Shown: positions 3,370-46,686 of the stretch, one piece after another
How the letters are laid out: each line of letters begins with the position of its first letter
Position numbering within the stretch: position 1 is the stretch's first letter
Assembly: GCF_963675165.1 (NCBI RefSeq)
Contig: NC_087385.1
Span: forward strand, 1,107,501 to 1,171,500
Direction of reading: 5' to 3'
Source: Halichondria panicea
Lineage: Eukaryota > Porifera > Demospongiae > Suberitida > Halichondriidae
DNA length: 64,000 nt
Translations under genes and position numbers: made by a program
The notes under the pieces: generated by a model
Seen by the model: only the letters and a program-made list of their open reading frames with translations
Database searches by the model: none
Told to the model about the DNA's origin: nothing

Positions 3370-6300
3370 ATGGATGCTCCCATTGAACCATCACCTCGTT
3401 ACCGTACATTCTCTACTGCAGCTGATGGACGCCATTACTATTGGAGGGGGCTTGGTCTAAGACGAGGGTCTAACATCATTGCTGTGTATGATCCAAGTAC
3501 TGAGCTGTGGAGCCTCTTGCCCACCACTGGACCTCTACCCCCTGGAGAGTATGGTGGTTGCTCTGTTTGTGTAGGTCGTTGCCTGTACACCTTTGGCGGT
3601 TATGATGGGTCTTCTTATGTCAATGACATGAGCAAGCTTGATCTGGACACTCTCCAGTGGACCAAAATCAAAACCTCTGGTAGTCAGCCTATGAAAAAGG
3701 CTGTCTGTGGACTTGTCTGTGTGAATGAGAGAACTCTGTGCTGCATTGGAGGATACGGTATTAAGGGCACCACACAACCAGGATCAACATTCACCAGGGA
3801 CACAGAATTTACTAATGGACGTGGATGGACAAATGAGTTTCAATTTTTCAATGTTGAAAATGGTAATGCTATCCCTCCTGATTTACTACTAGTTATTCTA
3901 TTGACCCTAACTTCTCCAGGTGTCTGGTCGTCCCCTGAGCTCAGAGGAGAGAGACCTCCTCCCTGTAGTGGCTTCACCTTCACCATGGTGGACAAACACA
4001 GGGCAGTCCTCTTTGGAGGGCGCCAACCTGGCCGTGATTGTAGAGTCAATGACGTCTACCTATTTAATTTGAGGGACATGGTAAGTTAGTAAAATATGAA
4101 ATATTCATACACAGCTTATTGATGTGTGTTCACTGTGTGTAGGAGGTCACTAAGGTGAGGCCAGTACAGGGAGAGCCATGGCCAGTGGGGAGGGCAGGCC
4201 ATGCTGCCTGTTGTCTCAACTATGGCCAGGACGACCCTCAACTACTGATGTATGGAGGAAGAGATAATGACAACAAGATACTGGGTGACATGTGGACACT
4301 GGATGCCGACACTGGCAAGTGGACAGAGGTGAGGATGGTGGTTTAGACCTACAATACAGCAGTGATACCACAACTGTTTCAGCCTGAGACTAAGTTTTAA
4401 CATGTAAACATGTCTCTGACTTAATGCGTGGGTGTATGCTACACATGTACTTTGTACCACCTATAATGCATACCAGCAGTCATTGCCTTCCTTACATTTT
4501 GTACCTCCAGGTGACACCTCCTGAGTCAATGACACCACGTTACCGCCACTCCATCACTGCCACCAGTCTGGGACCAGGACTCACTGAGGTCCTCGCGTTT
4601 GGAGGCTCTCAGGAGGTGCTGGGAGATACCATTGCTGAGACCATCATACTGAGATTTGGTGAGCAGATATACAGCTAGTTATTCTGGCAACTATTGTTCA
4701 GGGTTTCATACAGGATTTTTAGTTGCGAGGGCGAAAATTTGAGGTGCAATTTGTGTTTCAATCATTCTTCTTTTAATTTTGGCTGGGTGGGAAATCCCAG
4801 GGCGCCCCCTCATCTCTATGAAACCCTGTTGTTTGTTAGAGACTAGTGGAATATACATGGGGAAAGTGCCTCAGAGGAGGTATACTATGGGACCAGAGGA
4901 GGTACGACACGGTCACATGACCAGCCAAAAGGATTATGAATCTCATTAACTTGTGCATGAATATCATTCAAGACTGTGTACTTTGATAGTGGATTTGGTT
5001 TGGCGTGTATCTTTCAAAAAATACACTTGACGTTTCTAAGATCAGGATTATTGATTGCTGGGCTTATATTGATGTGAAATAGCTTTTCAACCAGTTTCAA
5101 CCACCACTTAGATTTTGAGATATTCAGTGTAAATCTGTTTTAGAGTGTTCAATAAGTATTCTGTGCCTGCATTCAGGATAGGATCACTGCCAACATCTGA
5201 GCCTTGGTTCTTGGAGGTATACTATAGGACTTAGTATATCTGCAACTTACTTAGTGTCTTGTTGTTAAGTAATTGTAATGTAGTCAAGCCTCGAGGGCAA
5301 AGTTTGCCCATGTGCACTAATATCTAAACTAGAGCACTAAAGTGCAAACCCTCGGCTGGTGACAGGATTATAAAGAAACCAGAAATATAATGCAGTCCAT
5401 AATTATAGTGATGTTGTTATCATGTATGACTTGCACAGCAACTCAGGAGCTAAACCAGACTGGAGGCATGCTGAAACATTTGAGAACAGGTAGTGGTACT
5501 ATAGATATATGCACTGTGGATTAGGATCACAGTAAAGAAGCCTGGAGTCTCAGAGAAGTATGGCTCCAGGTTCTGCATGGAGTAGGATCCCAGTCAGCAG
5601 CAGGAGCTATAATTTAAGCTTCTACTTTAGTGACCCTGTTCCATTGTTCCTGGTATATACAGCTTTCTACTTTAGTGACCCTGTTCCATCGTTCTGGGTA
5701 CAGGATCACTTCAGTTATAAGTAACACATGTGCAAGTTCTGTTCAAGCTACATTTTGCTCGCTTTTATTAGACAAAGAAGCTTTAACACCGAAAGCTGCC
5801 ACTATCAAAAGTACTAACTTGTTGTGTGGAGGCTACTCATGCTGTAAACGCAGTGCTAGAACATCCAGGTAAGCAGACCTAGTCACAAGCTTATTTAAGC
5901 TTCTTAGCTTTTGCTCGACAAAGAAGCTTTAACATCAAAATCTGCCACTATTTAAACCAAGATATTGTTTTGTGAAGGCTACCTATGCTGCAAACGCAGC
6001 GCTATGGCATCCAGGTGAGTAGATATACTCGTGACAAACAGACAAACAAACAAACAAACAAACAAACCAACAGACTACTATACCCGCTGGCCGCGGCACG
6101 GCCTCGGGTAATGAGTGTGTGTCCATGTGTCAGGCAATCTTGTAGTACCATTGCTACACTTGGGATACTGAAGCAGTGCCTTTATACTTCTAAATCCTAT
6201 AAACACCTCAAACAGATTATATAATTATAGACAACGTCAAGTACACATTACATTGGTCAATCATTTTTGTATGCACAATTGTACTACATTTTTTCTTTTT

Positions 6301-7435
6301 CTTTCCTACAGAGTTGACTGGACCCTCAGCGTCTGTTGCTGGACCCTCGGCTGGGAAGTGGGCTCTCGTGGATGTGGCCCACAACGACACTAGAGGCTCC
6401 GCCCAGCGACTGAGTGAGAAGAGGATCAGACAAGCAACTGCTCGTGCCTCATCAGTCAGTGAGACCAGCGACCACTCCTCTCAAGACCGGGTGAGGGCTC
6501 TGGAACAACAGTTACGAGCAGCAGAGCAGAGAGAGCACGACATTCAACGTCGTCACCAACTACAGTTAGAAGAAAAGGATCGAGAATTGGCTATTAAAGA
6601 TCTTGAATTGACCGAAGCCAACCGTCGCCATGGAGATGCGGAGAGGAGAGCCCAGCTGGCAGAGGAGCGAGCAGAGGGTCTGGAGACTCAATGGGTGGTC
6701 CATCGTGGGATGATCCAAATGACAGAGAGACAGCTCGGTGGGGGAGGATGGGGGGTCGTCAAAGTGGCCAAGTTCCGAGGAATCGAGGTGGCAGCCAAGA
6801 CACTGTACGAGCAGCTCAGTTCCATCTATTATCGACGCATGTTTATTCGTGAGATGAACATGGCGGCTCGTCTGCGACACCCACACCTGGTCCAGTTCAT
6901 AGGAGCCACGCTGGAGGGGGAGATGATCATCCTGACAGAGCTCATGGCCACCAGTCTGAGGAGGGTGCTGGAGGGAGGTCGTATCTCACGTGAACACATC
7001 CTCTCCATCTCTGTGCAGGTCTGTCAAGCCCTCAACTATCTCCACCTCATGCAGCCAGACCCAGTGATCCATCGTGACATCAGCAGTGCAAACGTCCTCC
7101 TCAACCCTCTACCCAATGGCTGCTGGAGTGCAAAGGTCACAGACTACGGCTCTGTGAACACCCTGCGGATGTTGAACACTGTCAATCCGGGAAGTCCTGT
7201 ATACGCTGCCCCTGAGGCCGGTAACCCGTCCCTCCAGTCAACCAAGATGGACATGTTCAGTCTGGGGGTGCTCCTGATCGAGATGTGTTCTGACCAGTTT
7301 CCGAGCCAGGAAGAACGCGAGAGCTTATTCCTCACCATCCAAGACCGTCAGTTTTCTGACATCATCAGTCGCTGTATTGATAGAGAAAGAGACAATCGAC
7401 CAACCGCTCGACAACTGTTGAATGAACTACAGTAG
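3370..7435 (+). CDS. KCK1: kelch propeller - coiled coil - TKL-like kinase
   Basis: Exon model: 3370-3862, 3920-4080, 4143-4328, 4511-4658, 6312-7435, which gives 2,112 nt and a 703-aa protein. A non-coding first exon probably ends at 3173. The first coding intron is only 57 nt, a multiple of three, so it reads through. Residues 1-330 hold six kelch repeats with FGG/YGG and W anchors. A coiled coil rich in E, R and Q follows (SQDRVRALEQQLRAAEQRE), shorter than in KCK2 and KCK3. The C-terminal ~238 residues are a kinase: glycine loop LGGGGWGVVKV, beta-3 lysine VAAKTL, HRDISSANVLL, DYG instead of DFG, and an APE-like AAPEA. There is no signal peptide or membrane span, so it is likely cytoplasmic. 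The family is TKL-like by motif; the substrate is unknown. Intron 4 carries two repeat insertions. Confidence 0.85.
4699..4828. mobile_element. MITE with CAGGGTTTCATA termini (in KCK1 intron 4)
   Basis: The 130-bp element is bounded by CAGGGTTTCATA and its complement TATGAAACCCTG, with ttgtt-like flanking repeats. Longer orthologues occupy the same intron in KCK2 (20452-20659) and KCK3 (36308-36515). KCK4 lacks it. Confidence 0.75.
5329..6110. mobile_element. Dispersed repeat with terminal hairpin (KCK1 intron 4)
   Basis: A roughly 780-bp insertion begins CTAGAGCACTAAAGTGC. It ends with a (CAAA)n tract and a GC-rich hairpin (TACCCG..GGCCG..CGGCC..CGGGTA). KCK2 has the uninterrupted site 'atctaaatgagtg'. 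A second copy of the same family sits at 44041-44867 in a different intron of KCK4, so the family moved independently. No transposase and no clear terminal inverted repeats are seen. Confidence 0.65.
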
Positions 7436-46200: not shown

Positions 46201-46686
46201 ACCAGTCTGAGGAGGGTGCTGGAGGGAGGTCGTATCTCACGTGAACACATCCTCTCCATCTCTGTGCAGGTCTGTCAAGCCCTCAACTATCTCCACCTCA
46301 TGCAGCCAGACCCAGTGATCCATCGTGACATCAGCAGTGCAAACGTCCTCCTCAACCCTATACCCAATGGCCGCTGGAGTGCAAAGGTCACAGACTACGG
46401 CTCAGTGAACACCCTGCGAATGTTGAACACTGTCAATCCAGGGAGTCCTGTATACGCTGCCCCTGAGGCCGGTAACCCGTCCCTCCAGTCAACCAAGATG
46501 GACATGTTCAGTCTGGGGGTGCTCCTGATCGAGATATGTTCTGGCCAGTTTCCGAGCCAGGAAGAACGCGAGAGCTTATTCCTCACCATCCAAGACCGTC
46601 AGTTCTCTGACATCATCAGTCGCTGTATCGATAGAGAGAGAGACAATCGACCAACCGCTCGACAACTGTTGAATGAACTACAGTAG
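43294..46686 (+). CDS. KCK4: kelch propeller - coiled coil - TKL-like kinase
   Basis: Exons 43294-43783, 43848-44008, 44891-45073, 45238-45382 and 45530-46686 give 2,136 nt and 711 aa. Two extra codons at the start (MDAPSPIEPSP), with single-codon losses in blade 5 (YGGRSSDKTLG) and before blade 6 (VTPASMTPR). Kelch loops: YD (blade 1), EY and H (blade 2), L (blade 3), TG (blade 4), SV (blade 5), LL (blade 6). The coiled coil is short and includes HDAERINLELIAEIERLQEG. The kinase keeps VAAKTL, HRDISSANVLL, DYG and AAPEA. Intron 2 holds a repeat insertion with a second one nested in it, whereas intron 4 is only 147 nt. Confidence 0.87.
44041..44867. mobile_element. Dispersed repeat with terminal hairpin (KCK4 intron 2)
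   Basis: Same family as 5329-6110: begins CTAGAGCACTAAAGTGC and ends with (CAGA)n and a hairpin (TAACCCG..GGCGC..GCGCC..CGGGTTA). TTAA flanks both sides (44037-44040, 44864-44867). Its site differs from the block 1 insertion, so the two transpositions were independent. Confidence 0.65.
44194..44399. mobile_element. MITE with CCGTATAGC termini
   Basis: 206-bp palindromic element, CCGTATAGCGGGTAATTTT with the complement at the right, TA flanks, nested inside 44041-44867. The uninterrupted family member at 5329-6110 lacks it. Confidence 0.8.

Follow-up and report, generated by a model that had tools for sequence, protein, structure and literature searches.

A clustered family of sponge kelch kinases, probably cytosolic receptors, with positive selection concentrated on one face of the propeller

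Introduction

It is an open question how animals that lack lymphocytes maintain a wide repertoire of recognition, and little is known about the intracellular sensors of early animals. Sponge NLR receptors form an expanded family, and Thomas reportedly described in 2006 positive selection on the substrate-binding domains of nematode F-box and MATH-BTB families, for which a role in innate defence was proposed. The kelch propeller is a known ligand-binding fold; Keap1, for example, binds its ligand at the face formed by the d-a and b-c loops. Here we describe a family of genes in the sponge Halichondria panicea that join a kelch propeller to a protein kinase. Four members (copies A to D) lie in the 64,000-nucleotide stretch of contig NC_087385.1 (C9) that we call the window (C9:1107501-1171500), and the family was followed through a genome of 131 Mb in 39 contigs. 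The original prediction, made from the window, held that the copies vary at one face of the propeller on a constant kinase, and it read them as cytoplasmic recognition kinases under diversifying selection. Overall, this interpretation is supported.

The closest solved relative of the propeller is that of KLHDC2, a C-degron receptor of the CUL2 ubiquitin ligase, whose pocket residues coincide with the variable sites of the sponge copies. In contrast to KLHDC2, the sponge genes carry a linker and a kinase joined to the propeller, exist in dozens of copies and have a diversified pocket. Keap1 and the KLHL (BTB-kelch) proteins share the same kelch fold. The nematode F-box and MATH-BTB families are similar in being intracellular, clustered and under selection at the target-binding surface, but they are ubiquitin-ligase adapters that lack a kinase and use another recognition fold. 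Sponge SRCR and NLR receptors are likewise large families read as recognition repertoires, whereas here a kelch propeller fused to a kinase serves as the recognition module. Expansion of the SRCR receptors is described in one report (PMC4772301), and the present genome holds at least 213 matches to SRCR exons (150 of 1364 candidates scored). Together with 24 matches to integrin-beta exons, these point to an animal genome. We found no description of a kelch-kinase family in the literature searched, which mostly leaves subscription papers outside its coverage, so that absence is not proven. Two ‘kelch motif containing’ sponge genes are lowered after exposure to microbial patterns according to another report (PMC6208332); nothing ties them to the present family, and they are not used as evidence here.

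Results

A clustered multicopy family

Each window gene has five exons with open frames and GT/AG borders. Exons 1-4 encode the six-bladed kelch propeller, and exon 5 encodes a charged, heptad-like linker followed by the kinase domain. With exon 1 of copy A as the query, 82 matches were obtained that resolve into 73 separate loci at E < 1e-40, 68 of them on C9, and an in-frame stop lies within the exon 1 match at 6 of the 73. Judged from these matches, the window genes are members of a clustered family with at least 73 kelch loci. The analysis took in 57 loci (fetched or in the window) and left out 16, two of which are broken or partial. From 60 extracted copies, seven were removed (four loci in duplicate, two identical twins elsewhere and the broken partial L047_-512), and a locus split between frames (L046) is absent from the set. 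The resulting table of 53 copies includes all of them for exon 1, 51 for exon 2, 50 for exon 3 and 33 for exon 4, and the codon models, which exclude eight stop-bearing copies, used 45, 44, 43 and 28 sequences for exons 1-4. At about 297-347 kb of C9, three kelch loci are each present twice, about 28 kb apart, and exons 1-3 are identical in the two pairs that were compared; this may be either a recent duplication or an assembly artefact.

Variation and positive selection in the propeller

Single residues just before strand a or directly after the GG of strand b take up to 14 different amino acids among the 53 copies, beside near-invariant neighbours. Directly after GG, the number of residues observed is 12 at site 28, 13 at site 78, 13 at site 129, 14 at site 199, 7 at site 258 and 10 at site 313. 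Just before strand a it is 10 at site 12, 13 at site 61, 9 at site 112, 9 at site 182, 13 at site 237 and 10 at site 292. Over 11 pocket sites, 49 distinct haplotypes occur among 50 copies, some of them stop-bearing. The window residues on which the original prediction was built are all present, both before strand a (YR/SG/SS/YD, EY/KF/EA/EY, V/Y/G/L, SG/SG/SH/TG, AG/SL/ST/SV and YR/YL/CR/LL) and after GG (Y/S/W/H and SQEVLG/RREWSG/GRKLEG/SRELLG), as are the codons GTC, TAC, GGT and TTA at blade 3. Summed over the six window pairs, which are not independent, the kelch exons show 251 nonsynonymous (N) and 87 synonymous (S) differences, and the final 265 codons of the exon that encodes the kinase show 62 and 50.

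Positive selection was estimated with our own FUBAR-like grid (an MG94-type codon model) on one FastTree tree per exon, and a site was called when its posterior exceeded 0.9. By this measure, 38 of 328 propeller sites are positively selected; in six null data sets simulated on the exon 1 tree with omega (the N to S rate ratio, dN/dS) of at most 1, only 4 of 984 sites were called. The calls include 32 of 74 top-face sites and none of 51 bottom-loop sites (Fisher p 1.8e-9), the borders between these segments having been drawn by hand after the alignment had been seen. Fitted omega is 7.8, 5.5, 7.0 and 4.9 for the face codons of exons 1-4 and 1.7-3.9 for the other b-c loop codons, values that are biased upward because these rule-defined sets were fixed after the entropy table had been seen; in the rest of the propeller it is 0.26-0.47. 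The kinase domains yield 0.298 for class 1 (16 sequences, 265 codons) and 0.352 for class 2 (8 sequences), the two classes being described below. Diversifying selection, as originally proposed, is supported: under our codon model (not PAML M8 or MEME), omega is above 1 at the loop sites of the face and 0.30-0.35 in the kinase, and the selected sites, 32 of 38 of which lie on the top face, are not spread evenly over both faces and the kinase.

Counts made without a tree rest on the 21 nearest pairs from 43 copies. The 14 face codons show 182 N and 8 S differences in 291 comparisons, the b-c loop codons 226 N and 31 S in 696, and all other (scaffold) codons 434 N and 223 S in 4605. The positions named from the window also hold in copies outside the window's clade (without WA-WD, L013 and L014). 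For nearest pairs picked without use of the tested positions, these positions show 164 N and 6 S differences in 271 comparisons, against 689 N and 244 S in 5251 for all other codons, among which further variable sites are included. The prediction that the propeller varies at one face is therefore confirmed, in a family larger than the four copies from which it was drawn. By these codon-level estimates, the kelch kinases are a multicopy family with positive selection concentrated on the predicted ligand-facing surface.

The variable face coincides with the KLHDC2 pocket

The relationship to KLHDC2 was established on one family copy, L015, whose joined propeller of 327 residues finds KLHDC2 chains as its best solved relatives (E ~1e-28, residues 7-310) and matches Pfam PF24681 at 1e-48 (166 bits, cut-off 50). 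Keap1 had been considered as the best template and was replaced by KLHDC2 after this structure-database match, in which Keap1 chains are weaker. The original prediction drew on Keap1-type propellers, which share the kelch fold; the closest solved relative is KLHDC2.

According to a report on KLHDC2 ligands (PMC11377542), R236, R241 and S269 of KLHDC2 recognise the C-terminus of the degron and are contacted by a degron-displacing ligand, which also contacts Y163, W191, W270 and K147. These residues were mapped by hand through the L015 alignment (chain index = residue + 1, with the residue type fitting in seven of seven cases). R236, R241 and S269 fall on sites 199, 206 and 236, and Y163, W191, W270 and K147 fall on sites 129, 153, 237 and 112. 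Ranked by entropy among 325 sites, these sites are 2 (199), 26 (206), 36 (236), 1 (129), 20 (153), 4 (237) and 14 (112). Their mean entropy is 2.65 bits, compared with 0.67 over all 325 sites, a value that no set of seven sites reached in 200,000 random draws. Four of the seven are called as selected, one stands at a posterior of 0.888 and two are uncalled.

Two kinase classes on related propellers

Family-wide, the kinase domains fall into two classes that are 38% identical to each other. Class 1 (HRDISSANVLL, TDYGS) has at least 19 matches at 83% or more over the domain. Class 2 (HRDVSAPNVLL, SDLGS) is preceded by a linker that is mostly 82-89% identical to that of copy A. These classes were assigned among the best 108 of 684 candidates scored; a third class guessed from the first kinase search proved to be class 2. 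For 46 of the 49 kelch copies checked, a listed kinase lies within 9 kb downstream, 16 of class 1 and 30 of class 2. The two classes thus sit on related kelch scaffolds and pocket modules, and for this reason a strictly constant kinase, as originally proposed, must be rejected for the family as a whole; within the window the kinase is indeed near-constant.

When a tree of 40 rows was built with the variable codons removed, kinase class required nine changes on it, compared with about 12.4 on average when the labels were shuffled, and 14 and 7 of 500 shuffles reached values as low as nine. Kinase class therefore follows the kelch tree to some extent. One sister pair (L052/L030), itself supported at 99%, carries different classes. 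Only two of 36 inner branches are strongly supported, forcing at least two class changes, and thus the number of kinase swaps is uncertain. By eye, the Lys, HRD...N and D-x-G motifs are present in 15 of 16 class-1 domains, the exception being copy C, which lacks the Lys, and in all 12 class-2 domains viewed, one of which has stops.

A second family with the reversed order

The genome contains a second family, in which each kelch propeller spans about 315 residues and is encoded by a single exon. It has at least 126 such propellers, three of them with stops (126 of 455 candidates scored), located on C1 (mainly 15.48-17.39 Mb), C6 (0.48-0.80 Mb) and C28. Three loci (L049, L050 and L051) have a kinase exon on the same strand upstream of the kelch, which is the reverse of the order in the first family, and the two would probably be carried on one transcript. 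The kinase at L051 belongs to a different kind (32% identity). The L050 kinase exon has 45 matches listed at 95-100% identity (150 of 768 candidates scored), whereas the kelch matches of this family mostly lie at 82-90%. Five full kelch sequences were compared in all ten pairs, which are not independent. Face codons, 18 in number and chosen by rule, show 126 N and 12 S differences in 180 comparisons, the b-c loops 160 N and 10 S in 408 and the rest 189 N and 132 S in 2522. The propellers of the two families are only 22-39% identical, in short local matches. Given pocket variation in both, diversification of the same face has occurred in two families of separate organisation. The second-family kinase query also revealed large clusters of other kinase genes at C3 0.87-1.71 Mb and C11 4.4-6.5 Mb.

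Discussion

On balance, we favour the view that these genes constitute a large family of clustered, probably cytosolic, receptor-like kinases in which a top-face pocket has been diversified by selection for recognition. This reading builds on the copy number, the mostly open frames, selection at one face, the constrained kinases and the coincidence with the KLHDC2 pocket. The proteins are probably diversifying receptor kinases with a cytosolic, immune function. A cytosolic location is suggested by the visible exons, since no hydrophobic N-terminus, signal peptide or transmembrane segment is apparent by eye in exons 1-5 (no predictor was run). We infer an immune or self/non-self role, and the driver would be the recognition of pathogens or foreign proteins. 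Specifically, the pocket might hold a short stretch of protein, plausibly a peptide tail of the sort that KLHDC2 binds, with positive selection having made the pocket different in almost every copy. Binding of the ligand would bring linkers and kinases together, and the clustered kinases might then activate each other and so produce a signal. A conflict partner such as microbes could drive the change of the pockets.

If the pockets instead marked individuals, the proteins might be allorecognition (self/non-self) or gamete-recognition kinases whose output depends on match or mismatch. A clustered multigene locus in which nearly every copy has its own pocket haplotype (49/50) would suit such a role, but direct cell-cell matching would require an extracellular domain, and no transmembrane or secreted part is visible by eye in these exons; we therefore regard this explanation as unlikely. 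We would give a similarly low rating to the possibility that each copy has its own host peptide target, the copies having diverged after duplication without an arms race. KLHDC2 and its relatives do read host protein tails, according to PMC12035522, and scaffold and kinase stay constrained. However, stable self targets should conserve their pockets after the initial divergence, whereas face omega is 5-8 across the trees. Moreover, in the closest pair (L026/L028) all six codons that differ are in the pocket or the b-c loops, none is in the scaffold and five change the amino acid.

This same pair could be cited for targeted hypermutation or micro gene conversion as the source of diversity, with selection being secondary, because site 199 changes from AAA to TTG together with a silent change in the neighbouring codon. 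Face codons often differ by two or three bases, and relative to the fitted model three-base differences are in excess (38 observed, 25.3 expected) and one-base differences are too few (83 observed, 124.5 expected). However, two-base differences occur as expected (88 and 89.1), and three-base differences are equally in excess outside the face (43 observed, 25.3 expected), which argues for protein-level selection with some multi-base events everywhere rather than for local hypermutation. Most face sites vary in the first two bases with one third base dominant, and the inferred synonymous rate exceeds 2 at only 4 of 17 face sites. We therefore consider this mechanism quite improbable as the main explanation, with short conversion tracts a possible contributor to the face codon differences. 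Least probable of all is that constraint is merely relaxed, or that tandem duplicates are decaying and loop variation is arbitrary. Loops are often the least constrained parts of a protein and some copies do carry stops, but face omega is well above 1, no bottom-loop site is called, and scaffold and kinase are under purifying selection; we give this possibility very little credence.

Several observations weigh against our preferred interpretation of a pocket diversified for recognition. The codon model ignores recombination within exons, and 6 of the 38 called sites lie off the top face. Two kinase sites in class 1 and one in class 2 also exceed 0.9. Sites 11, 112 and 206 are strongly variable yet uncalled; the synonymous rate inferred by the model is likewise high at sites 11 and 112, site 206 has a posterior of 0.165, and site 61, at about 0.90, is likewise uncalled. 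The carboxylate clamp of KLHDC2 is not generally retained: R or K at site 206 with S at site 236 occurs in 19 of 50 copies, and the full equivalent of R236, R241 and S269, with R or K at both 199 and 206 and S at 236, occurs in 6 of 50. Given so few copies with the clamp, the ligand need not be a C-terminus. In copy C, the lysine codon of the VAAK motif (about window 37597-37599) encodes asparagine, and thus this copy is possibly a pseudokinase. For exon 1, an AlphaFold model based on the four copies in the window reached a predicted local distance difference test score (pLDDT) of 41.9 and was not used; a Foldseek search with it returned KLHDC2 first, a result of little weight owing to the poor model.

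We also entertain, more tentatively than the reading for the window's own family, the idea of an undescribed intracellular recognition repertoire in an early-branching animal, in which at least two kelch-kinase families, diversified at the pocket with which KLHDC2 reads protein C-termini, have had their recognition modules recombined with alternative kinase outputs. It appears that a fold for reading peptides was turned into a variable receptor with a kinase still attached. If true, germline-encoded peptide recognition would be coupled directly to kinase signalling. Because sequence reveals the pocket of each copy, ligands can be sought directly. Furthermore, the family is a natural library with many propellers on one scaffold, which should be useful for establishing the specificity rules of kelch domains.

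Gene structures and neighbourhood in the window

The exons of the four window genes are as follows.

3370..3862, + strand: copy A exon 1, blades 1-3, variable sites 11, 12, 28, 61, 78, 111, 112, 129, 147 and 153
3920..4080, + strand: copy A exon 2, end of blade 3 and blade 4, variable sites 181, 182, 199 and 203-206
4143..4328, + strand: copy A exon 3, blade 5, variable sites 236, 237 and 258-264
4511..4658, + strand: copy A exon 4, blade 6, variable sites 291, 292 and 313-320
6312..7435, + strand: copy A exon 5, linker with charged, heptad-like sequence (by eye a coiled coil) followed by a class-1 kinase (Pfam Pkinase, 1.5e-35)
18861..19344, + strand: copy B exon 1, kelch blades 1-3
19409..19569, + strand: copy B exon 2
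19632..19817, + strand: copy B exon 3
20001..20148, + strand: copy B exon 4
21038..22425, + strand: copy B exon 5, longer linker and class-1 kinase (Pfam)
34977..35460, + strand: copy C exon 1, kelch blades 1-3
35525..35682, + strand: copy C exon 2
35746..35931, + strand: copy C exon 3
36122..36269, + strand: copy C exon 4
36890..38235, + strand: copy C exon 5, linker and class-1 kinase with the VAAK lysine changed to asparagine
43294..43783, + strand: copy D exon 1, kelch blades 1-3
43848..44008, + strand: copy D exon 2
44891..45073, + strand: copy D exon 3, preceded by a longer intron
45238..45382, + strand: copy D exon 4, acceptor placed by homology
45530..46686, + strand: copy D exon 5, linker and class-1 kinase

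The four genes differ in the length of the linker that precedes the kinase: the exon 5 frames of copies A-D span 373, 461, 447 and 384 codons. A methionine stands at the position of the ATG at 3370 in 28 of 52 copies, and the remaining copies have another N-terminus; this ATG is therefore not certain to be the true start, and the family genes possibly have an upstream exon. Pfam scans of the L015 propeller, of a class-2 kinase and of the exon 5 products from copies A and B gave no hit to BTB or BACK, with the reservation that such a domain might lie in an upstream exon, and the proteins scanned gave no Pfam hit to NACHT, LRR or SRCR.

Pieces of a BLTP1-like gene (PF25040) lie on the minus strand at window 24365-25282, 51014-52534 and 54535-54999, with similar DNA at 40156-40989 and 48634-49548 (minus strand), and they recur in step with the kelch-kinase units. 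Window 25454-30495 matches 49866-54928 at 96.8% identity over 5 kb, which marks a recent segmental duplication. A proteasome-subunit (PF00227) fragment at 15360-15698 (minus strand) travels within the duplicated units, and similar DNA lies at 41305-41682 (minus strand); the Pfam scan covered the 15360-15698 piece only. A tandem duplication of 297 bases with 99% matches (window 15523-16117) spans the proteasome-like fragment, and a tandem repeat with a 28-base unit in about 21 copies (98% matches) occupies window 56602-57193.

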